From: Candidatus Woesearchaeota archaeon
GTDB taxonomy: Archaea > Nanobdellota > Nanobdellia > Woesearchaeales > JACPIF01
Assembly: GCA_016188215.1 (NCBI GenBank)
Contig: JACPIF010000008.1
Coordinates: 56,448 to 101,438 of the forward strand
Reading direction: 5' to 3'
Length of the DNA stretch: 44,991 nucleotides
The notes beneath the pieces are model-generated. The model was not told where the DNA came from and ran no database searches. It was given only the letters and a program-made list of their open reading frames with translations. How positions within the stretch are numbered: position 1 is the first letter of the stretch; every line of letters begins with the position of its first letter. Below, piece after piece: positions 4,850-36,262 of the stretch. Made by a program: the position numbers and the translations under genes.

Positions 4850-5548
4850 ATGAGAAAGAAAATATTTGTTATTTTCATTATAGCATTGTTTATTGTAGGT
4901 TGTGTCCCTCAATCTGATGAAGTCTCAAAAAAGACTACAGTTACCCAAAACGCGAGACAGGAGATTGTATCATTAGATAATTTGTATTTGAGTATAAGGC
5001 CTATTTCATTTAAAGATGGTGTTGGACCAAATATTGTATATGAAAAATTAAATGAGGATTTAATAATTGTTCTTAAAGATAATAATCCGGATATTGACCC
5101 GAAATTTCGAGTGTATAGTTATGTTCTTGAGCAAGATTTACCAAAATATAAAGTACCAAAAGACGAACTTTTTAAAATTGCTCTTTCAAATTTTGAAGAG
5201 GAGGAATTCCCATTAAATATTTTAACTTCTGAAGACGGTATAGCTATAGCCATATTTCCAATATGGAATGAGTCTTTTATGATTGGGGAAGATATTGTTC
5301 AGTCTCATTTACTTTCGGAATCATCCCTCTCAATACTAAGAGATCAGCTTGGCGAAGAATATTATATAAGAATATCGAACTGGGGCGTTTTTATGGCATT
5401 TAGAAAGTATATCCCAGAAGAAGCGTGGGATGGGCTTAGAAATATTGCATTAGAAGCCTACCAAAATGAGATGCAGCCATTATCGGATAAACTTTTTCTT
5501 TATAAAGAGGGAAAAATAATAACCGTAAAGGATGAATATCCTTCATAG
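4850..5548 (+). CDS. Predicted lipoprotein of unknown function
   Basis: 232 residues. A short basic start (MRKK), a hydrophobic segment (IFVIFIIALFIV) and the lipobox-like end LFIVGC point to a lipid-anchored exported protein with mature Cys17. The rest is acidic, soluble and has no motif I recognise. It begins 6 bases after the GT-C pair on the same strand and is probably transcribed with it. Codon use is clearly more AT-rich than in the genes on either side, a sign of separate origin. It could be a surface solute-binding or scaffold protein; I make no functional claim. Confidence 0.7.
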   Translation: MRKKIFVIFIIALFIVGCVPQSDEVSKKTTVTQNARQEIVSLDNLYLSIRPISFKDGVGPNIVYEKLNEDLIIVLKDNNPDIDPKFRVYSYVLEQDLPKYKVPKDELFKIALSNFEEEEFPLNILTSEDGIAIAIFPIWNESFMIGEDIVQSHLLSESSLSILRDQLGEEYYIRISNWGVFMAFRKYIPEEAWDGLRNIALEAYQNEMQPLSDKLFLYKEGKIITVKDEYPS

Positions 5549-5597
5549 CAGATTTAGGATAACCAAGAATCTTTTCCATGATAACCTCTTTCACTAA

Positions 5598-5606
5598 CTT
5601 TAAATA
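5598..5606 (+). promoter_or_regulatory. Archaeal TATA box for ferredoxin-DUF4346 gene
   Basis: The sequence ctttaaata is centred 26 bases before the ATG at 5628, matching the TATA-to-first-base distance of the 5S gene in this window. The mRNA probably begins at or next to the start codon (leaderless). Confidence 0.7.
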
Positions 5607-5627
5607 CCCTATGGGGCTTTCTCCGTC

Positions 5628-6221
5628 ATGATGAAGAAGCTCAGGGTAGAGTATAATCATGAGAAGTGCATCGGGACGAAAACGTGCATAGCGGCCGCTC
5701 CAAGGTATTTTGAGCTGAAGGGGGGGAAGGCGCATCTTGTTGGGAATTACAAGCAGGAAGGGATACAGGTTTCTGATTATGAGGCAGATGAGACTGCTTA
5801 CAATGAGATAGTGGAAGCTGGCGCTTCATGCCCGGTGAATGCGATCAAGGTCAAGGACATGAATTCAGGAAAGGTGCTGGTTGGCACTGAGATAACAACT
5901 GCTCCGGATTACAGGGAGGTCACTGCACAGTATGATGACATGAAGGAATTTGCATTGGATCCTAACGGGTATTTCCTGATAAGGGTTAATCATGCAACCA
6001 AAGAGATTGAGGTGGGGTTCTGCAAGGAAAGGAACCATGTATTAGTCAAGATAACTGGAAAGAAGCCGATTGATATCTATCAGACTATCATCAATAAAGA
6101 GAAGCTCATCAGCAGGATAGACCATGGGGCATATCTGGGAAGGGAACTGCAGAAGGCATACATGGCATTGCAGCATGGCCTTGAGTATGTGCAGGATGAT
6201 GAGCTGAAAGCTAAAGGTTAA
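5628..6221 (+). CDS. Single-cluster ferredoxin fused to DUF4346 domain
   Basis: 197 residues in two parts. Residues about 4-75 are a single-cluster ferredoxin: Cys14 and Cys20 (KCIGTKTC) and the distal Cys68 (SCPVNAI). The usual second cysteine of C-x2-C-x2-C is Thr17, so only three cysteines remain, as in [3Fe-4S] ferredoxins. Residues about 105-195 match DUF4346 (DPNGYFLIRV, SRIDHGAYLGRELQKAYMAL, YVQDDEL), a domain otherwise seen with pterin- or thymidylate-related proteins. A role as electron donor is likely, and the radical SAM gene 27 bases downstream is the obvious candidate partner; that pairing is inference. Start: the first of two adjacent ATGs, 26 bases from the TATA box. Confidence 0.8.
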   Translation: MMKKLRVEYNHEKCIGTKTCIAAAPRYFELKGGKAHLVGNYKQEGIQVSDYEADETAYNEIVEAGASCPVNAIKVKDMNSGKVLVGTEITTAPDYREVTAQYDDMKEFALDPNGYFLIRVNHATKEIEVGFCKERNHVLVKITGKKPIDIYQTIINKEKLISRIDHGAYLGRELQKAYMALQHGLEYVQDDELKAKG

Positions 6222-6226
6222 AATAC
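6217..6226 (+). promoter_or_regulatory. TATA-like box for radical SAM gene at 6249
   Basis: The sequence ggttaaaata is centred about 27 bases before the ATG at 6249 and overlaps the stop region of the ferredoxin gene. It suggests that the radical SAM gene has its own leaderless promoter in addition to read-through. Confidence 0.5.
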
Positions 6227-6248
6227 GAAGAAAATATACTATTGGGCT

Positions 6249-7817
6249 ATGGCATCAAAAATCATTCTGGTATACCCTTCTTCTTCCCCGGATATTGAAG
6301 GCGGAGAGGTTGATTTTGACCGCTATAAATCAGTCCCTATCGGAGTCCTTAATATTGCAACTTGGCTAGACCATAACGGGTATGATGTCAAGATAATAGA
6401 CGGCAGGGCATACACGAAAAAGGAGACTCTGGAAAAGCTGAAGAAGGAGCTTCCAGGAGCGTTGTGCGTCGCGTTCGGCATCACCACAGTCCAGATAAAG
6501 CATGGGTTGCACCTTTCTGAATTCATCAGGAATTTTGACAAGAACATACCGATAATCTGGGGCGGCATACACCCAACAATGTTTCCCCTCCAGACTATAA
6601 AAGACAAGGCAATGGATTACCTGCTGTACGGGGAGGTTGAATATCCACTCCTTGATTTAATACATTACCTGGAGGGAAGGAAGAGCAGCATTAAATCTGT
6701 TAAAGGGCTTGTGTACAGGAAAGATGGGCAGGTAATCATGAATCCTATGCATCCAGGCATCAATCCAAATGAGCTCCCTGTGCCAAAATATGAGCTGTTA
6801 GATATTGAAAGGTATATAGAGCGGGATTTTCTCACTAATCTGGGAAAGATAAAAAAGATGCGGGCTTTAGACATCAACACAAGCAGGGGTTGCCCATATA
6901 GATGCAATTTCTGCCCGAACACCATGGATGTCTTTAAGCGGTACAGGGTCCAGGAGATCAACCGCGTCTTTCAACTGATTGACCATCTGGTTGAAACCTA
7001 TAAGCTTGACCATATCTGGTTCTGCGATGAATTGTTCTTCGTGGAGAAAACAAAGGTACGGGCAATTGCACAGCATATCATAGACAAGGGATATAACATA
7101 ACATGGGAGTCTAATGCAAGGGTTGACCAGTTCAATGAGAGATTATTGAATGATGAGCTGCTTGCCCTGATAAAGAAATCTGGATGCTTTGCATTGCGGA
7201 TGGGCATGGAATCAGGCTCTAACCGCATACTGCAGCTCATGAAAAAAGATTGTGTGGTTGATGATATTGTAAGGGCGGTTGAGCAGTGCGAGAAATACGG
7301 CATCATCCCTATTGGCAATTTCATAATCGGATTTCCGACTGAAACCAAGGAAGAGATGGTGGCTACTGCCAAGCTGATATTGAAATTAAAACAGATATCA
7401 CCTAATGGATTGTTCTATTCACCTGGGCTGCTAAGGCCGTATCCAGGAACTGAAATATATGAATATGCACGGCAATACGGCGGGTTTGACGAGCCTAAGA
7501 CTTTGCGGGAATGGGCTGAGAAGGAGATTGATGTGGGATTATTTGTCAATCCTTCAGATTTGAGATGGATAAAGGATCCTGAATGGCTATTGAATTTCCA
7601 GGTTTACTTTTATGTATTGACAGTCATGAAAACACATCAGCTGACAAAGAAGCACCTTTCCCCTGCCTGGAAACTAGCAGGGAAGATATCCGAGTTCAGG
7701 CTTAACCATAATTTCTGGAAGTTTGGCATAGAGCCGAAGATGATGATAGCTGTCAAGAAGTTCCTGGACAAGAATTCCGCGATGGCGCAAATGATGAAGA
7801 AGACATTGAGCTTATGA
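6249..7817 (+). CDS. B12-binding-domain radical SAM protein
   Basis: 522 residues. The N-terminal cobalamin-binding-like Rossmann domain (residues about 1-150; IILVYPSSSPDIEGG, PIGVLNIATWL, IIWGGIHPTMFP) is followed by the radical SAM core with Cys215, Cys219 and Cys222 (RGCPYRCNFC) and the downstream blocks GMESGSNRILQLMKK and IIGFPTETKEEM. The family performs SAM-radical chemistry such as C- or P-methylation. The substrate is unknown; the setting among glycosyltransferases and methyltransferases suggests a lipid or sugar modification. Its last 6 bases overlap the convergent methyltransferase gene at 7812. It follows the ferredoxin-DUF4346 gene, a plausible reductant. Confidence 0.9.
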   Translation: MASKIILVYPSSSPDIEGGEVDFDRYKSVPIGVLNIATWLDHNGYDVKIIDGRAYTKKETLEKLKKELPGALCVAFGITTVQIKHGLHLSEFIRNFDKNIPIIWGGIHPTMFPLQTIKDKAMDYLLYGEVEYPLLDLIHYLEGRKSSIKSVKGLVYRKDGQVIMNPMHPGINPNELPVPKYELLDIERYIERDFLTNLGKIKKMRALDINTSRGCPYRCNFCPNTMDVFKRYRVQEINRVFQLIDHLVETYKLDHIWFCDELFFVEKTKVRAIAQHIIDKGYNITWESNARVDQFNERLLNDELLALIKKSGCFALRMGMESGSNRILQLMKKDCVVDDIVRAVEQCEKYGIIPIGNFIIGFPTETKEEMVATAKLILKLKQISPNGLFYSPGLLRPYPGTEIYEYARQYGGFDEPKTLREWAEKEIDVGLFVNPSDLRWIKDPEWLLNFQVYFYVLTVMKTHQLTKKHLSPAWKLAGKISEFRLNHNFWKFGIEPKMMIAVKKFLDKNSAMAQMMKKTLSL

Positions 7818-29745: not shown

Positions 29746-30798
29746 TCACAAAAACCTCTCAACCTCTTTCATGACATCCTCAACCGTAATCTTCTCTAAG
29801 CTTTCTCTGTAGTCGCCCTCTGGCTCAGGATTTGTTGAGTAGAAGGGGTACTTGATAAGTATAGGTCCTTTTTGGATGACTGCTACCTTCTTGCCCCAGG
29901 GTCTGGTGCGGTTTGGGTTGGCAGGGCCGAATAATACCACTACTGGGATGTTTTTAGCGGCGGCAATGTGCCCCAGACCGGAATCTGTTGAGACAAATAA
30001 TTTGCAGTGCCATATCAGGGCTGCTACCTCATTTAGGTTCATGTCTTTGGCTATGGTTACTCTGCTTTTGTCATCTACTCCTCTTAGGATGTCCGCTGCC
30101 AAGCCTGCTTCATCAGGGCCTTCAAACAGTAAGATGTGGGCTTTCTCATAATCATTCAAGATATTGTTGCAAAGTTGGCTGAAGCTGCGGCTGGGCCATC
30201 GCCTGTATAATGCAGTCTTGCTAGTGCCAGGATGCATGCCGATAAGCCAGGATTTCTGGAGCTTGTTGCTTCTGATAAATTCAAGGGCTTTCTTCTCATC
30301 TTCTTTGGAGGTCTCAAAAATCAATTCCCTTTTCTCTTTTTCTGTATTGATGCCAAGGTGCTCAAGCAAGTTAAGGTTGTTCTCCACATCGTGCAGCTTC
30401 TCATCAACAGGCACAAACTCTGTCTGCAGGTTAGCTAATGTATTCCCGACTTTATATCGGTGTGTTATCCTGCGCTGCGCTCCAATGAGCCATGCAAATA
30501 GATTGAATTCATAACGGTTAGAAGGGAAGGTTGTCAAAGAAATATCATATTTTACTTTGCGCAATGCCCGCAGTTTCCTGAGCCTGTCAATTATGCTGCC
30601 ATTAAAGACTATAACTTCGTCCACAAAATCGCTGTCCCTGATGCAGCTAGCAAAGCTCTTTTCTCTCACCAGCAAGGTAATGCTGGCTTTTGGCAATTGC
30701 TTCCTTAATATGCGTAGGGCAGGAGTGAATAGTATGGTATTGCCAATGCCTGACAAGCATGTAATGAGGATTTTCAGCTTTTGGTGCTTGAGGTCCAT
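29746..30798 (-). CDS. Glycosyltransferase family 9 (heptosyltransferase-like)
   Basis: 350 residues from the ATG at 30798 (MDLKHQKLKILITCLSG). A TTG nine bases earlier is in frame, but an A-T box near 30825 lies 27 bases before the ATG. GT9 marks: LITCLSGIGNTILFTPALRILRKQLP, GMHPGTSKTALYRRWPSRSF, and the donor-site block FVSTDSGLGHIAAAKNIPVVVLFGPANPNRTRPWG. The family is best known for adding heptose to bacterial lipopolysaccharide; in archaea the sugar is unknown. It follows ugd, nucleotidyltransferase and UDP-xylose synthase genes in one operon, so it may use a sugar made there. Confidence 0.9.
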   Translation of the reverse strand: MDLKHQKLKILITCLSGIGNTILFTPALRILRKQLPKASITLLVREKSFASCIRDSDFVDEVIVFNGSIIDRLRKLRALRKVKYDISLTTFPSNRYEFNLFAWLIGAQRRITHRYKVGNTLANLQTEFVPVDEKLHDVENNLNLLEHLGINTEKEKRELIFETSKEDEKKALEFIRSNKLQKSWLIGMHPGTSKTALYRRWPSRSFSQLCNNILNDYEKAHILLFEGPDEAGLAADILRGVDDKSRVTIAKDMNLNEVAALIWHCKLFVSTDSGLGHIAAAKNIPVVVLFGPANPNRTRPWGKKVAVIQKGPILIKYPFYSTNPEPEGDYRESLEKITVEDVMKEVERFL

Positions 30799-30823
30799 AT
30801 AAGGCAAGAACTTAGCATTATTA

Positions 30824-31765
30824 TTAAGCTTTACTCATTTCTTCTCTAAAGAAATCAATTGTCTTTTTCAGGCCCTCCTGCAGGGAAACCTTGGGCTCCC
30901 AGTTCAACTCTTTCTTAGCCTTTGTGATATCAGGGCATCTCACATGGGGGTCATCTATAGGCAAGGGCTTGTGGACAATCTTGCTCCTGCTTTTAGTGAG
31001 CTTAATTATTTCCCCTGCGAACTGCAATATGGTCATCTCCTGCGGATTACCTAGATTCACAGGATCATTTATTTTAGAATTTATCAGCTTATAGATGCCT
31101 TCAATAAGGTCAGAGACATAACAGAAGCTGCGTGTCTGTTTTCCATCACCGAATACTGTAATATCCTGCCCCCTTATTGCCTGGTTGATGAATGCAGGCA
31201 CTACCCTGCCGTCATTCGCCCTGTTTCTAGGGCCATATGTGTTGAAAATCCTGACTATTTTTGTGTCAAGCTTATGGATGCGGTGGTATGCCATTGTCAA
31301 TGCTTCTGCAAAACGCTTGCTCTCGTCGTAGCAACCTCGAACTCCAACCGGATTCACGTTGCCCCAATAGGTCTCAGGCTGTGGATTTACCAAAGGATCG
31401 CCATAAACTTCAGATGTGGATGCGAGCATGAACTTTGCTTTCTTGTCCTTTGATAATCCAAGCAGGTTGTGAGTGCCGAGAGAGCCTACTTTTAGCGTCT
31501 GGATAGGAATCTTGAGATAATCCACCGGGGATGCGGGACTTGCAAAGTGCAAAACGAAATCTAATGGACCTTCAATGCTGATATGCTTGGAAACGTCATG
31601 GTCAACATAAGTAAACTTAGGATGCCCCATCAAATGCTGGATATTAGTCTGATTGCCGGTAATCAGATTGTCCATGCAAATGACTTCATGCCCCTTGGCA
31701 AGAAGAAATTCACAGAGATGGCTGCCGATGAATCCCGCGCCGCCGGTAACAAGTATCCTAGCCAT
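30824..31765 (-). CDS. uxs: UDP-glucuronate decarboxylase (UDP-xylose synthase)
   Basis: 313 residues, full length for the bacterial/plant-type enzyme. The NAD motif [15 protein letters not shown] is followed by the UXS-specific [32 protein letters not shown], then [11 protein letters not shown] with the catalytic Y-x3-K, and [21 protein letters not shown]. It converts UDP-glucuronate to UDP-xylose with loss of CO2 in the cytosol. Its substrate is the product of the ugd gene two genes upstream. It overlaps the nucleotidyltransferase gene by 8 bases (31758-31765). Confidence 0.93.
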
Positions 31766-32519
31766 CTGTAAACTTCTGCCTCCAAAACATGTCTGCTTCC
31801 TTCAACTGCTCATGGCTGCCGATGTCAAACCATTTTTCCTCAAACACGAAGCCATAAACATGCTTCTTTTCTGAAAGGTACTTTATAAAATCTCCGAGAT
31901 TGTCCGGCTTTTTATTGGCTTTAATGCATTCCTCAAGCAGCTCAACATCTTCTTTAGTAAGCAAATAGCAAGCGGTTGCAGCTAACGTTGTTTTAGGCTC
32001 GGCTGGTTTTTCCTCAAACTTAATTATCTTGCTGTCATCCCCTACTTCTACAGCTCCTAACTTATTTGCTATTATATGCTTGTGCTTGACATCGTAGAGA
32101 GCAACTACTGAGGCTTGCTTTTCTTTATAAAATTCATATAAATTGAGCAGGCTGAACTCAAATAAGTTATCGCCGGCAACAACCAAAATGTCTTCATCTA
32201 TATTAGCGGTCTGGATTGCAAAGTGGATGTCACCGACTGCGCCTAAGCGCTCATGCTCAGACTTAGTATTATCATTAACAATAGTAATTGGAATCTTGCT
32301 GTCAAAGTTCTCCTGCCAATACATGAATTTGTCATAGAATTTATTGTTGGTCACAATGTAGATATGGTCAATTGCATCTATCTCTTCTATTCGCTCAATG
32401 ATATGCTCTATCATCGGCTTGCCGGCTATGGGCAATAATGGCTTTGGCTTGTCAAGCGTTAACGGGTATAGACGTGTCGCATAGCCCGCGCATAACAAGA
32501 TTGCATTCGTAGTAATCAC
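31758..32519 (-). CDS. Sugar-1-phosphate nucleotidyltransferase
   Basis: 253 residues. The activation motif [31 protein letters not shown], the metal-site [11 protein letters not shown] and FEEKPAEP are standard for NTP_transferase enzymes making NDP-glucose or NDP-mannose type donors. There is no C-terminal left-handed helix domain, so it is not bifunctional. Since it sits between ugd and uxs with overlapping ends (ATGA at 32516-32519), it probably makes UDP-glucose (a GalU role) for them; thymidylyltransferase activity cannot be excluded. Confidence 0.87.
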
Positions 32520-35215
32520 CTTCCAACTGAGATATACTTAAAACCAAGTTTCCTTACTGTAGCAGGATCGTATATGTTTCTGCCATCTATAATGATTTTG
32601 GTTCTCATAAGCTGTTTAATCTTGTTTAAGTCAAGTTCTGAGAATTCCTTCCATTCTGTCAATATTAAAAGAGCATCTGCCTGCTCGGCAACCTGGTATG
32701 GGTTATCGCAATAGGTTATGCCCTGGATAAACTCCTTTGCCCTTTCCTCTGCCTTTGGATCATAAGCCTTAATGTTGGCTCCCTCATGCTTTAAGGTGTT
32801 TATAATCTCTATGGATGGAGCTGAGCGCATGTCATCTGTGTTCGGCTTAAAAGCCAATCCGAGAACCCCTATATTCTTGCCCTTTACTATCCATAATGCC
32901 TTTTCAACTTTCCTGATGAAGTTAAATTTCTGCAATTCATTGATCTCCTCAACTGCCTTCAGCAGCTTGAAGTTATATCCGTTCTTTTCAGCTATCTTGA
33001 TGAATGCAGAGACATCTTTTGGAAAACAGTTATGGACCACCAATCCATTGCTTAAAACCATAGTATGAGTATCTTCTACCTCTAATGAATATACATCCAA
33101 TTCAGATTCAGAAATTTCCAAATTTTTAGCCTTAACAGTTGCAAAATCGCTGTTTATATTTTTAAATCCGGTCGGTTTAATGATTTTCTTATATCTTGTC
33201 AGCCTATCCTCAATTTCTTTTTGCTTTGATGCATCCTTAAAATTAGGTAATTTCTTTATTTGATCCCTTCCGGAAACTCTAAGGAAATGCGCATAATCAG
33301 TAGATTTCTTAGATATTGATTTCTTATAGCTTGGAACAATGCTTAAGGAGTGGAATAAAGTCATCATTCCAGTAATAAGCTCCCTGCTTATTGAGCCATA
33401 ATCATATACTACTGCAGGAGTATTTCTTTCTTTTGTAATATGACCATCGCCCTTAAATACAGTTGATAGAAACTGCAATTTTTGCTCATTATTTGCGGAA
33501 TATACTACCTGAGGAACTCTTGAGGTATAACTATCTGTGCCGCAGTTCAAGATTTGATCTAGTAAAAATGCGAATATCCGCGATGAGATGGAGATAGAAA
33601 TTGTATTGTTTGGCGGATTTCTGAAGATAGTGTAGCGTATAGACATTGTATCCAATATGGTGCATAACTCCTCAACATATTCGCTTTCTTTTATATTAAA
33701 TGTGAACTGTATCCTAGCTCGAGTGCCCCTTAGTCCATTCTCGTAGGTAATATGCCCCTCACTGATGTAGTAGCCTAATAATTTGCAGAACTCAGAATTT
33801 ATTTCTATGAGAGCCGGACAATAGGTAGTATTTCCCTTGCTCGTGAACAAGACCACGTCTTTTCTGGTTATCCATTTTGAGATATTATCCTCTATGCTTA
33901 GAAATTCATTAAGAGTCATGCAATTGCTTCTCAGGATATCTCTGTCTCTTCCATGGTATGTTTTTAGTGATTTTATAGCGGTAACTACACTTGCATGTTT
34001 ATCAAATCGGGTATTAATTGGGCGCACTCTTATTTTACTCTTATCAAAAGCTGAACTGGCAATAATCTTATCAATCATATCAATTATGATCTCTTCATTA
34101 GATACCGGAATATCAAAAAAGACCGGTAATTCATCATTATTTTGTAATTCATCTGCAAGCTTTATCTTAAACTTCCCTCCTTCATATACAAGGAAAGGAT
34201 GATCTGCTGTAGCAATAACTGTTTTATTCATCCTAGACGTTACTTTAACCAGCTTGCCCTTATAGCGTCTTTTAGTTGTGCATAAAATCCTTTTGAATAT
34301 TGTTTTTTTCGATTGAGGATCAAAACTGAGCACTTTAATTGGTGTCATTAAGTTAAACTTATTAAATAAAACTTTTAGTTTAATAGGGTATATTGAGCCG
34401 TTATCATTAATAATCACTTCCTCACCGCCATCCAAGCAGGAGCCGCCATAACCGATTCCTGCGTATAGGAATTGCCTGCCTATCCTTGTGTCATATCCCA
34501 TGCCTTCTGCCACCTTGTTGACATCTGCCCCGGTCAATTCGCAGATATTTGCGATAGCATTAATGAATGAGATTTTTGTGGCAAGGAATGAGTTGGAGGC
34601 ATGCTTGATTATCTCTGCACTTCTTATGTCAGTCACTACAATCGGCGCTTTCAAAGGGGCATAGAGTTCCTTCATGATATCCGCTGCCTTTTCTGATGAA
34701 GTGCCTATGACTACCCTGTCCGGATTAAATGTATCATGGACAGCGCTGCCTTCCCTTAGAAATTCAGGATTTGAGACAACATCAAATGGAACATCGTTGG
34801 TGTTATACATCTGGATGGTTTCTGCAATCTTCTCACCGGTCTCCACAGGCACAGTACTTTTCTCAACAATCACTTTATACCTATCAAGATGCTCAGCTAT
34901 TGTCCTGGCAACATTTTCTACATAGGAAAGGTCAGCTTCCCCATTTGGCTTAGGTGGCGTTCCTACACAGACAAAGATGACATCGCCGTGCTTAATTGCC
35001 TTATTCAGGTCTGTAGTAAATGCAAGGCGCTTTGCCCTGATATTCTTGTGTATAAGCTCGTCAAGCTGTGGCTCAAAAATAGGGATTATGCCCTTGTTCA
35101 GAGCTGCTATCTTGTGCTCATCTATGTCTACACCCACTACATCATGGCCCAGCTCTGAAAGCATTGCGCTTGTAGTGAGCCCCACGTATCCAACTCCGCA
35201 TATAGTAATCCTCAT
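32516..35215 (-). CDS. ugd: UDP-glucose 6-dehydrogenase interrupted in frame by an intein
   Basis: 899 codons: N-extein residues 1-259, intein 260-729, C-extein 730-899; the spliced enzyme is 429 residues, normal for the family. The N-extein starts MRITICGVGYVGLTTSAML (NAD motif) and has FVCVGTPPKPNG, VEKSTVPVETG, SNPEFLREG and the catalytic-lysine region EIIKHASNSFLATKI. The active-site block GYGGSCFPKD is split exactly before its catalytic cysteine, which doubles as the +1 splicing residue. It oxidises UDP-glucose to UDP-glucuronate, feeding uxs. The TATA box at 35236-35246 is 26 bases upstream. First gene of the operon to 29746. Confidence 0.96.
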   Translation of the reverse strand: MRITICGVGYVGLTTSAMLSELGHDVVGVDIDEHKIAALNKGIIPIFEPQLDELIHKNIRAKRLAFTTDLNKAIKHGDVIFVCVGTPPKPNGEADLSYVENVARTIAEHLDRYKVIVEKSTVPVETGEKIAETIQMYNTNDVPFDVVSNPEFLREGSAVHDTFNPDRVVIGTSSEKAADIMKELYAPLKAPIVVTDIRSAEIIKHASNSFLATKISFINAIANICELTGADVNKVAEGMGYDTRIGRQFLYAGIGYGGSCLDGGEEVIINDNGSIYPIKLKVLFNKFNLMTPIKVLSFDPQSKKTIFKRILCTTKRRYKGKLVKVTSRMNKTVIATADHPFLVYEGGKFKIKLADELQNNDELPVFFDIPVSNEEIIIDMIDKIIASSAFDKSKIRVRPINTRFDKHASVVTAIKSLKTYHGRDRDILRSNCMTLNEFLSIEDNISKWITRKDVVLFTSKGNTTYCPALIEINSEFCKLLGYYISEGHITYENGLRGTRARIQFTFNIKESEYVEELCTILDTMSIRYTIFRNPPNNTISISISSRIFAFLLDQILNCGTDSYTSRVPQVVYSANNEQKLQFLSTVFKGDGHITKERNTPAVVYDYGSISRELITGMMTLFHSLSIVPSYKKSISKKSTDYAHFLRVSGRDQIKKLPNFKDASKQKEIEDRLTRYKKIIKPTGFKNINSDFATVKAKNLEISESELDVYSLEVEDTHTMVLSNGLVVHNCFPKDVSAFIKIAEKNGYNFKLLKAVEEINELQKFNFIRKVEKALWIVKGKNIGVLGLAFKPNTDDMRSAPSIEIINTLKHEGANIKAYDPKAEERAKEFIQGITYCDNPYQVAEQADALLILTEWKEFSELDLNKIKQLMRTKIIIDGRNIYDPATVRKLGFKYISVGR
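33029..34438 (-). mobile_element. Intein with LAGLIDADG homing endonuclease in Ugd
   Basis: 470 residues. It begins CLDGGEEVII (block A, Cys1), with TADHPF (block B, TxxH) about 85 residues in, and ends SNGLVVHN (block G, His-Asn) before the extein Cys. The central part has two LAGLIDADG-type motifs, LLGYYISEGHI and FLSTVFKGDGHI, each with an acidic residue at the metal position (Glu and Asp), so the homing endonuclease looks intact. Base composition is much more AT-rich than the extein coding sequence, fitting recent horizontal entry. Confidence 0.95.
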
Positions 35216-35235
35216 ATAACCCCAACAATAACACT

Positions 35236-35246
35236 TTATTTAAATA
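35236..35246 (-). promoter_or_regulatory. TATA box for ugd operon
   Basis: A symmetric ttatttaaata stretch is centred 26 bases upstream of the ugd ATG at 35215. With the opposite box at 35276-35284 it makes an 88-base divergent promoter region where the RHH-fusion protein could bind to control both directions. Confidence 0.65.
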
Positions 35247-35275
35247 TCTTACCTTTATCCTACCTTATGCGATAA

Positions 35276-35284
35276 CTTTAAATA
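35276..35284 (+). promoter_or_regulatory. TATA box for RHH-nucleotidyltransferase gene
   Basis: ctttaaata is centred 27 bases before the ATG at 35307, which favours the second of two adjacent ATGs (35304, 35307). Confidence 0.65.
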
Positions 35285-35306
35285 GGGATGTAGGTTTTGC
35301 TGTATG

Positions 35307-36101
35307 ATGAAGCAGAAGATTAGCATTACACTTGATGAGCATGCGATAAAGGAGATTGATTCTACAGTAGACAATATCTATATCCGGAACAGGAGCCAGG
35401 CAATTGAGCATCTTGTCAAGACTGCTCTTGGAGAGAACAAGACTGCTGTTATCCTAGCCGGAGGGCCTGAGGAGCAGCTTAAAACAAAGGGCGAGTTCTG
35501 CTTTTCATTGCCAGTCAGGGGAAGCAGCCTGATTGAGGGCATGGTGAAAAAATTTAGGGAGCACAGGTTCAAGGCAATTTATGTGATCGGAAGGCATGCG
35601 GTAATCACGAGGATATTTGAGCTGCTTAAAGATGGGAGCAGCTACGGTGTAAAGATAACCTACATTGAAGAAAAACACTCTAAGGGAACGGCTGATTCGC
35701 TGCGGCTGCTGAAAGGGAAAGTAAGCGGAACATTCCTGACTGTCTATTGTGATATTTACTTTAACAGGATAAACCTGGATGAGGTGTGGAAAGACCACCT
35801 GAAGCAGGGCAGCTTGTGCACGCTCATGCTGACTACATCTTCAAAGCCAAGCGAGAAAGGGACTGTAATTGTTGAAGGCACAAAGATATTACAGTTCATC
35901 CAGAAGCCGAAGCAGTCTGATATTTACCTTGTGTTCTCGCCTATATTTGCTGCAGAGCCAGAGATATTTGACTATCCTGGGACAAGCCTGGAGCAGGACG
36001 TGTTCCCTGCGCTTGCTGAGAAAGGGCTCTTATACGGGCATATGAGCTCTGAGAAGGAGATACATGTGAGGAGCAGGGAAGAGGCTGGCAGGGTGCGATA
36101 G
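35307..36101 (+). CDS. Ribbon-helix-helix domain fused to a degenerate sugar nucleotidyltransferase
   Basis: 264 residues. Residues 1-42 (KISITLDEHAIKEIDSTVDNIYIRNRSQAIEHLVKTAL) are a ribbon-helix-helix DNA-binding domain. From residue about 46 a nucleotidyltransferase fold follows: TAVILAGG, SLPVRGSSLIEGM, GTADSLRLLKG, TVYCDIYFNRINL and FIQKPKQ. The catalytic signature is decayed: GTR after the GG is PEE, the PK lysine is missing, and the usual GD is CD. It may bind a sugar nucleotide or sugar phosphate without catalysis and repress or activate DNA accordingly. It is divergent from the UDP-glucuronate/UDP-xylose operon, the likely target. The 5S gene starts 45 bases after it. Confidence 0.85.
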   Translation: MKQKISITLDEHAIKEIDSTVDNIYIRNRSQAIEHLVKTALGENKTAVILAGGPEEQLKTKGEFCFSLPVRGSSLIEGMVKKFREHRFKAIYVIGRHAVITRIFELLKDGSSYGVKITYIEEKHSKGTADSLRLLKGKVSGTFLTVYCDIYFNRINLDEVWKDHLKQGSLCTLMLTTSSKPSEKGTVIVEGTKILQFIQKPKQSDIYLVFSPIFAAEPEIFDYPGTSLEQDVFPALAEKGLLYGHMSSEKEIHVRSREEAGRVR

Positions 36102-36145: not shown

Positions 36146-36262
36146 GTGGACGGTCATAGGGGCGTGGTTCCACCTGATCCCATTCCGAACTCAGAAGTTA
36201 AGCACGCCACCGTCTTGGATGGTACTGTACTTGCGTACGGGAAGTCCAGGAAGCTGTCCCAC
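36146..36262 (+). rRNA. rrf: 5S ribosomal RNA
   Basis: 117 bases with the conserved core (36179-36204: cccattccgaactcagaag followed by ttaagc) and a cggtcatag start block as in archaeal 5S RNAs. The ends pair as helix I: gtggacgg at the 5' end with gctgtcccac at the 3' end, allowing one bulged C and one G-U pair. No 16S or 23S gene is adjacent, so the 5S gene is unlinked and has its own promoter, as in several archaea. Ends are inferred from the pairing and may shift by one or two bases. Confidence 0.95.

Follow-up and report, generated by a model that had tools for sequence, protein, structure and literature searches.

A ribbon-helix-helix protein with a catalytically decayed nucleotidyltransferase domain as a probable regulator of UDP-glucuronate and UDP-xylose synthesis in a woesearchaeal archaeon

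ROK regulators (NagC, Mlc, and XylR) combine a degenerate sugar-metabolizing enzyme with a DNA-binding domain and sense sugars. In the Nudix-related regulators NrtR and AraR, an enzyme-derived domain joined to a DNA-binding domain serves as metabolite sensor and repressor (PMC6800001, PMC4666351). PutA, a trifunctional protein with a ribbon-helix-helix (RHH) domain and proline dehydrogenase/P5C dehydrogenase activities, is an autogenous repressor of its own pathway (PMC5293562). GMPPA is a dead paralogue of GDP-mannose pyrophosphorylase which lost catalysis, kept GDP-mannose binding, and has a feedback role (PMC11228364).

The window analysed here, 44,991 nucleotides of contig JACPIF010000008.1 of a Candidatus Woesearchaeota archaeon, encodes an RHH domain and an NTP_transferase domain in one protein (Table 1), which resembles each of these systems in part. 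As in PutA, an N-terminal RHH domain precedes a metabolic enzyme domain, but the enzyme of PutA is unrelated and has kept its activity; the window protein, in contrast, is a pseudoenzyme, and the active pathway enzymes are encoded by separate genes. With NrtR and AraR it shares the fusion of an enzyme-derived, here putative, sensor domain to a DNA-binding domain; those regulators are bacterial and carry a winged helix after the Nudix domain, while the window protein comes from a DPANN archaeon and has the RHH domain first and the NTP_transferase fold. ROK regulators differ by their sugar-kinase fold and winged helix. GMPPA has the NTP_transferase fold and the loss of catalysis in common with the window protein, but it is without a DNA-binding domain and acts on an enzyme, not on transcription. 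NikR, the closest RHH sequence relative, also consists of an RHH domain and a C-terminal sensor domain, but its sensor is a nickel-binding ACT-type domain; the C-terminus here is an NTP_transferase domain, and the protein does not qualify as a NikR. RmlA, AglF, and archaeal GlmU share the fold and domain family with the window protein, which lost the catalytic motifs and gained the RHH domain. We also considered eIF2B as a parallel for a sugar-sensing nucleotidyltransferase and set it aside, since the sugar phosphate is reported to be tied to the regulatory subcomplex and not clearly to the nucleotidyltransferase-like subunits. The preliminary description, made from the sequence of the window, knew of no characterised regulator of such build, and neither an RHH-nucleotidyltransferase fusion nor a Woesearchaeota ugd regulator was found by us in the open-access literature.

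The feature had been taken to start at 35236, which is not in frame and takes in the upstream region; the open reading frame begins at 35304. The second ATG (Met2) is probably the true start, as read from the sequence, because it lies 27 bp from the centre of the right TATA box and because the orthologues begin at the residue aligned to M2. The NTP_transferase profile PF00483 matched residues 48-225 (E 1.4e-15, above the curated cutoff), which meets the family-profile test. The single-sequence match of the RHH domain was weak (NikR TIGR02793, E 2.3e-4), and a profile of 31 family N-termini matched NikR 1q5v (E 1.9e-6) and the RHH antitoxin Rv0298 (E 2.8e-5). An AlphaFold2 model from 54 family members (mean pLDDT 93, pTM 0.83) has N-terminal helices at residues 12-21 and 30-41 and then a complete nucleotidyltransferase fold; the RHH strand forms only in the dimer, which was outside the scope of this model. 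Its best PDB matches by Foldseek were RmlA, the GMP pyrophosphorylase VTC1, and human GMPPA/GMPPB, and the RHH-nucleotidyltransferase architecture was absent among the matches listed. K5, S7, and T9 align with R3, T5, and T7 of NikR, which we take to be its base-contacting residues. The DNA-contact strand K-I-S-I-T is retained in nearly all of 41 aligned orthologues, and an NRSxAIE-type helix start in all 41. With the profile match to NikR, the two helices, and the (nearly) invariant KISIT and NRSxAIE motifs, the protein has what is expected of an RHH sequence. The fusion to a decayed nucleotidyltransferase, as originally claimed, is borne out by the profile matches, the model, and the loss of catalytic motifs.

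Table 1. Features of the regulator gene, the divergent promoter region, and the facing operon (positions within the window).
Feature	Position	Strand	Remarks
RHH-pseudonucleotidyltransferase regulator gene	35304..36101	+	265 aa; probable start 35307 (second Met); predicted leaderless mRNA
N-terminal RHH DNA-binding domain (residues 2-45)	35307..35438	+	NikR profile matches, model helices, alignment
NTP_transferase-fold domain (residues 47-265)	35442..36098	+	PF00483, fold matches, alignment; catalytic Arg, PK lysine, second metal Asp lost
Left TATA box of ugd (TATTTAAA on - strand)	35239..35246	-	Centre ~27 bp from ugd ATG 35215; conserved at alignment columns -6 to 0
Right TATA box of regulator gene (TTTAAATA)	35277..35284	+	Centre ~27 bp from ATG 35307; conserved in alignment
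Predicted 30-bp operator TATCTTACCTTTATCCTACCTTATGCGATA, between the two TATA boxes	35245..35274		Conserved in orthologue upstream regions; no binding data
Operator box 1 ATCTTAC	35246..35252	+	Positions 97-100% conserved in 34 loci
Operator box 2 ATCCTAC	35257..35263	+	11 bp from box 1
Operator box 3 ATGCGAT	35267..35273		Inverted-type half-site here; direct ATCNTAC box in some orthologues
ugd, UDP-glucose 6-dehydrogenase, intein-interrupted, divergent target gene	32516..35215	-	PF03721/00984/03720
Separate NTP_transferase (AglF/RmlA-like) of target operon	31758..32519	-	PF00483; TRL and PKPL motifs kept
uxs, UDP-glucuronate decarboxylase	30824..31765	-	E 3e-106 to human UXS1
Glycosyltransferase family 9 gene, last operon gene considered	29746..30807	-	PF01075, E 1.8e-32

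The loss of catalysis was assessed by comparing 41 aligned close orthologues (group I) with 18 paralogues of the same architecture (group II), which retain the motifs GGxGTR...PK, GTAGPL, (G/A)DEL, EKP, IN(S/A)G, and GQWFDTG. While GG is kept in all 41 group I sequences, the GTR arginine is present in only two of them (14/18 in group II), and the proline of PK in none (all Tyr, Phe, Cys, or Leu) versus 18/18. The PK lysine has become Arg in 31/41. The first metal Asp is kept in 37/41; the second (FDTG) is His in 38/41, as against Asp in 16 of the 18 paralogues. All group I members have Gln for the EKP glutamate, with the Lys kept, and Phe for the IN(S/A)G asparagine, positions at which all group II members have Glu and Asn, respectively. 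The window protein has the E-to-Q change at 200 and the N-to-F change at 211 and keeps GG, D150, and K201, so that of an active-enzyme signature (GxGTR...PK, two metal Asp, and EKP) nothing is left but GG, the first Asp, and the KP lysine. The loss of the GTR and PK signatures noted previously was therefore confirmed by the alignment, whereas the supposed loss of the metal-aspartate context holds for the second Asp (WFDTG) and not for the first. As to whether the nucleotide pocket is retained, the predicted structure keeps the nucleotidyltransferase fold and several ligand-side residues, and the catalytic positions are replaced. Orthologues with full catalytic residues and activity but no DNA binding would have refuted the original reading; all 41 aligned orthologues lack the catalytic set. 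Judged by its residues, the window protein belongs to the NTP_transferase fold but is predicted to be no active enzyme.

The median dN/dS of the nucleotidyltransferase domain was 0.063 (NG86, 5 usable pairs) and that of the RHH domain 0.049 (9 pairs). These values rest on few pairs, but by this estimate strong purifying selection is acting on the dead domain. Because the replacements are uniform and the ratio is this low, we read the pocket as repurposed, not decaying; chance or pseudogene decay was ruled out by the 41 aligned intact orthologues, the dN/dS near 0.06, and the fixed replacements. Since paralogues of the same architecture keep all catalytic motifs, group I is a pseudoenzyme branch, and the existence of catalytically intact RHH-nucleotidyltransferases indicates that the fusion probably preceded the decay.

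Group I genes were found in 78 of the 353 genomes of the order (Woesearchaeales-type DPANN archaea), at 42-65% identity to the window protein (the window itself excluded), and beyond the order but within the class in five genomes (G528, 56%; G359, 51%; G376, 50%; G462, 44%; G495, 42%). Some match to the regulator is present in 272/353 genomes, and paralogues of the same architecture at 30-40% identity occur in many more genomes of the order than group I. The named relatives retrieved from the public collection belong to Woesearchaeota MAGs and to one uncultured archaeon. In a maximum-likelihood tree, whose root is arbitrary, group I forms one clade (support 100/98) and group III another (100/99), both apart from the intact group II.

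Group III is a second degenerate RHH-nucleotidyltransferase clade (L041 2024-2845, L058 13629-14459, L066 1786-2610, and L067 1295-2095), which is divergent from dTDP-rhamnose-type genes (in L041 these are RmlC-, RmlB-, and RmlD-like; L066 has comparable ones). At group II loci (L090 5598-8863 and similar), the catalytically intact gene is followed by a phosphoglucomutase/phosphomannomutase gene, and group II genes are often divergent from a glpX-type fructose-1,6-bisphosphatase gene with ATCATAC tandem sites; group II proteins are candidate bifunctional enzyme-regulators of gluconeogenic flux into sugar nucleotides and would be the direct analogues of PutA. The 1.1-Mb genome of the window itself has a second RHH-nucleotidyltransferase (C11:50531-51277, that is L078 7523-8278; 36% identity to the window protein) ~5 kb left of the window, which is degenerate in a different way (GG lost, EK and NAG kept) and overlaps a PMT_2-type membrane glycosyltransferase gene, and an intact nucleotidyltransferase without an RHH domain (C10:29837). 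In another genome (G227:C40:46322-47835), an RHH-nucleotidyltransferase and a second nucleotidyltransferase match without RHH lie head to tail, which suggests a split or duplicated fusion.

The operon facing the regulator gene, proposed to be ugd-NTase-uxs-GT9, was confirmed as such by the matches in Table 1; the pathway leads from UDP-glucose to UDP-glucuronate and UDP-xylose. Most group I genes are divergent from ugd, which is commonly followed by the nucleotidyltransferase gene and uxs, and ugd also stands opposite a group I gene in two genomes of other orders (G528 and G376). The divergent arrangement, whose lack of conservation would have counted against the first interpretation, is thus conserved across many families and beyond the order. 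In G362 and G474, more distant relatives stand opposite a uxs-like gene, and a related site is present there.

Several further observations concern this neighbourhood. In L039, ugd is replaced opposite the group I gene by a sugar kinase of the GHMP type (5353-6417), which may act in sugar-acid salvage. In one genome family (f14), a protein of 302-308 aa is encoded between operator and ugd (L055 2549-3466, L062 7880-8785, L063, and L064); its L055 copy had no Pfam match. The intein of ugd, missed in the preliminary description, has a LAGLIDADG domain and is placed exactly before the catalytic-site Cys (YGGS/intein/CFPKD; the intein ends in VVHN). A second ugd (L057 1254-3923, 889 aa) carries an intein at the same site, and the other ugd orthologues (~435 aa) have none. 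A 5S rRNA gene (36146-36262, + strand; RF00001, 79 bits) follows the regulator gene on the same strand after only 45 bp.

The divergent region of 88 bases (35216-35303) contains two TTTAAATA boxes, back to back as already reported, and the predicted operator fills the space between them, adjoining both BRE positions. From the TATA-to-ATG distance on both sides and the usual archaeal TATA-to-start distance, we infer that both mRNAs are probably leaderless. Successive operator boxes lie 11 and 10 bp apart, a distance of one helical turn, which fits side-by-side RHH dimers on one DNA face, with the binding itself inferred. A search for a conserved palindrome in 35216-35306 across orthologues had been suggested, and this 30-bp operator is what was found. 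The sequence TTTAAATATCTTACCTTTATCCTACTTTATGCGATAAGTTTATATA is common to the regions upstream of group I genes. The 30-base core was matched with <=8/30 mismatches in 30 of 41 upstream regions, in a test that left out the bases after the start codon, and none of the dinucleotide shuffles of the same 41 regions reached this level. A genome-wide scan detected the operator pattern in 78/353 genomes of the order (reversed-pattern control, 2 hits), namely in 71 of the 78 genomes with group I and in 7 others without it. Fisher's test for this co-occurrence (p 1e-57) ignores shared ancestry, and we read it only as "strong."

The gene immediately leftward of the site was ugd in 42 of 56 inspected cases, and in more it was ugd one gene further. 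In G105 and G114, the contig that carries the regulator has no site, which lies instead at ugd on a different contig (L107/L119 and L108/L120), and in G090 and G066 the site is likewise at ugd, apart from the regulator (L116/L050 and L115/L077). A gene of 400 aa separates regulator and ugd in L068, with the site 30 bp from ugd, and in L038, L048, and L061 only 15-30 bp lie between the site and ugd, as against 170-240 bp between the site and the regulator. Because the operator remains with ugd where the genes are separated, the conserved target is ugd, and autoregulation follows from the sharing of the promoter. That the operator merely reflects common ancestry of the locus was rejected, since in an alignment of 34 loci on the core most box positions are 94-100% identical and the flanking columns 35-60%, and since the site follows ugd in rearranged genomes. 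A wider regulon was also rejected, the scan of the own genome having found a single site. The genomes compared are MAG-based and have gaps. Two of them, G002 (98% complete) and G121 (91%), have the site at ugd with no group I gene detected; in G080 and G242 a group I gene is present and no recognisable site was found, and in G269 and G282 the group I gene is at a contig end or partial. No sensible target could be assigned to three off-locus hits (L111, L113, and L117), which are probably due to chance, and a fourth (L110) is a group II site beside the FBPase gene.

The site ATCATAC-N3-ATCATAC of group II promoters was matched with at most 3 mismatches in 8/18 cases (shuffled rate 0.0006), and the promoters of group III have their own GTTACT..AGTAATA element. 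The group II site had no good match in the own genome, in agreement with the absence of an RHH domain from its intact paralogue (L003). RHH strand residues at positions 5, 7, and 9 differ between the groups (K-x-S-x-T, R-x-T-x-T, and R-x-S-x-S), and this change of strand residues in step with the sites is indirect evidence that the site is read directly.

We consider it likely that the window protein is a one-component regulator of UDP-glucuronate/UDP-xylose synthesis that senses a sugar nucleotide in its dead nucleotidyltransferase pocket and probably represses both the pathway and its own gene. The domain architecture, the catalytic loss, the purifying selection on the dead domain, the conserved operator, its single genomic copy, and its link to ugd were computed here, and a pseudoenzyme sensor of the NrtR or ROK type would be expected to have just these elements: a DNA-binding domain, a non-catalytic domain under purifying selection, and an operator at pathway genes. 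A one-component regulator had been the simplest reading from the start, and it is supported by the loss of the catalytic set in 41 orthologues, the conserved divergent arrangement, and the operator; sensing by the pocket is an inference, and no ligand has been shown. The DNA target is strongly supported, although direct binding is inferred: RHH strands of dimers, joined through the nucleotidyltransferase domains, would bind the tandem ATCNTAC-type boxes. The bound operator would most likely shut off the ugd operon and the regulator's own leaderless gene, because it lies directly upstream of both TATA boxes and over the TFB-recognition positions; that the effect is repression rather than activation is likewise inferred. 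The ligand is inferred to be a metabolite of the pathway and most probably one of its UDP-sugars (UDP-glucose, UDP-glucuronate, or UDP-xylose), whose binding in the dead pocket would, through an inferred allosteric link, change DNA affinity and give end-product feedback. By analogy with GMPPA (PMC11228364), a pocket that keeps GG, the GTA/GSA loop, D150, and K201 without the catalytic Arg, Lys, and second metal ligand could bind a nucleotide sugar without converting it. C66 of the window protein and the lost phosphate-loop Arg may weaken nucleotide binding, and it is speculation that the invariant E-to-Q change suits a charged sugar such as glucuronate.

The same protein might instead activate ugd, binding beside the BRE and recruiting TFB/TBP or RNA polymerase to both promoters, and the standard arrangement, in which the operator is upstream and not downstream of both TATA boxes, would permit this. 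We think it unlikely. Most RHH regulators are autorepressors, and in a short form of the locus (L041, L058, and L066; site 27 bp from the ATG, start codon of the regulator within or adjoining box 3) the operator sits between a single upstream TATA box and the regulator ATG, where binding should block the regulator transcript; repression is therefore favoured. It is also conceivable, but rather improbable, that the dead domain senses no small molecule directly and contacts the active nucleotidyltransferase of the operon (31758-32519) or another sugar enzyme, relaying its state to DNA via the RHH domain, as GMPPA partners GMPPB. GMPPA, itself non-catalytic, inhibits GMPPB allosterically and binds GDP-mannose (PMC11228364), the best fold matches include GMPPA/GMPPB chains, and many ugd operons encode a separate nucleotidyltransferase. 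However, six loci (L043, L044, L056, L073, L075, and L076) have ugd without a nearby nucleotidyltransferase gene and keep the operator, and the invariance of the changed pocket positions points to use of the pocket.

We give very little credence to the view that another factor binds the conserved site and that the RHH-nucleotidyltransferase gene adjoins ugd for unrelated reasons. Although G002 and G121 would fit it, their assemblies could have lost the gene or they could use a paralogue; moreover, site and group I gene co-occur as described, the site is within the shared promoter, and the paralogue groups differ both in their RHH strand residues and in the sites of their own promoters. That the regulator is a trigger enzyme, still a working nucleotidyltransferase which also binds DNA, seems hardly tenable, even though D150 and K201 remain in group I and group II proteins, beside phosphoglucomutase/phosphomannomutase and FBPase genes, keep all catalytic motifs. 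The window protein has other residues in place of the catalytic Arg, the PK lysine, the second metal Asp, and the EKP Glu, and the target operon encodes its own nucleotidyltransferase; of the motifs that a PutA-like trigger enzyme should have, the window protein is deprived, and only group II meets this expectation in sequence.

As for the repressor with a sensing pseudoenzyme domain that we prefer, the principle of an enzyme turned regulator is already known; the domain pair, the family, the operator, and the link to the pathway are new as far as we found. On balance, we lean slightly towards regarding the RHH-nucleotidyltransferases as a whole family of DPANN regulators. In this proposal, a bifunctional ancestor coupled sugar-nucleotide synthesis (with phosphoglucomutase/phosphomannomutase and fructose-bisphosphatase) to transcription and gave rise to at least three pseudoenzyme offshoots, each with one nucleotide-sugar pathway (UDP-glucuronate/xylose, dTDP-rhamnose type, and a glycosyltransferase locus) and its own ATCNTAC-type operator variant. 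The sugar nucleotidyltransferase fold joins the short list of enzyme folds turned gene switch, and because intact RHH-fused enzymes survive beside dead ones, the path from metabolic enzyme to transcription factor can be traced here. How uncultured DPANN archaea control transcription has hardly been explored; in this case sequence alone suffices to name regulator, operator, and target pathway together, with a site conserved enough for an in vitro test. The pathway feeds glycan synthesis, which in turn probably affects the cell surface of these small and likely host-dependent organisms.
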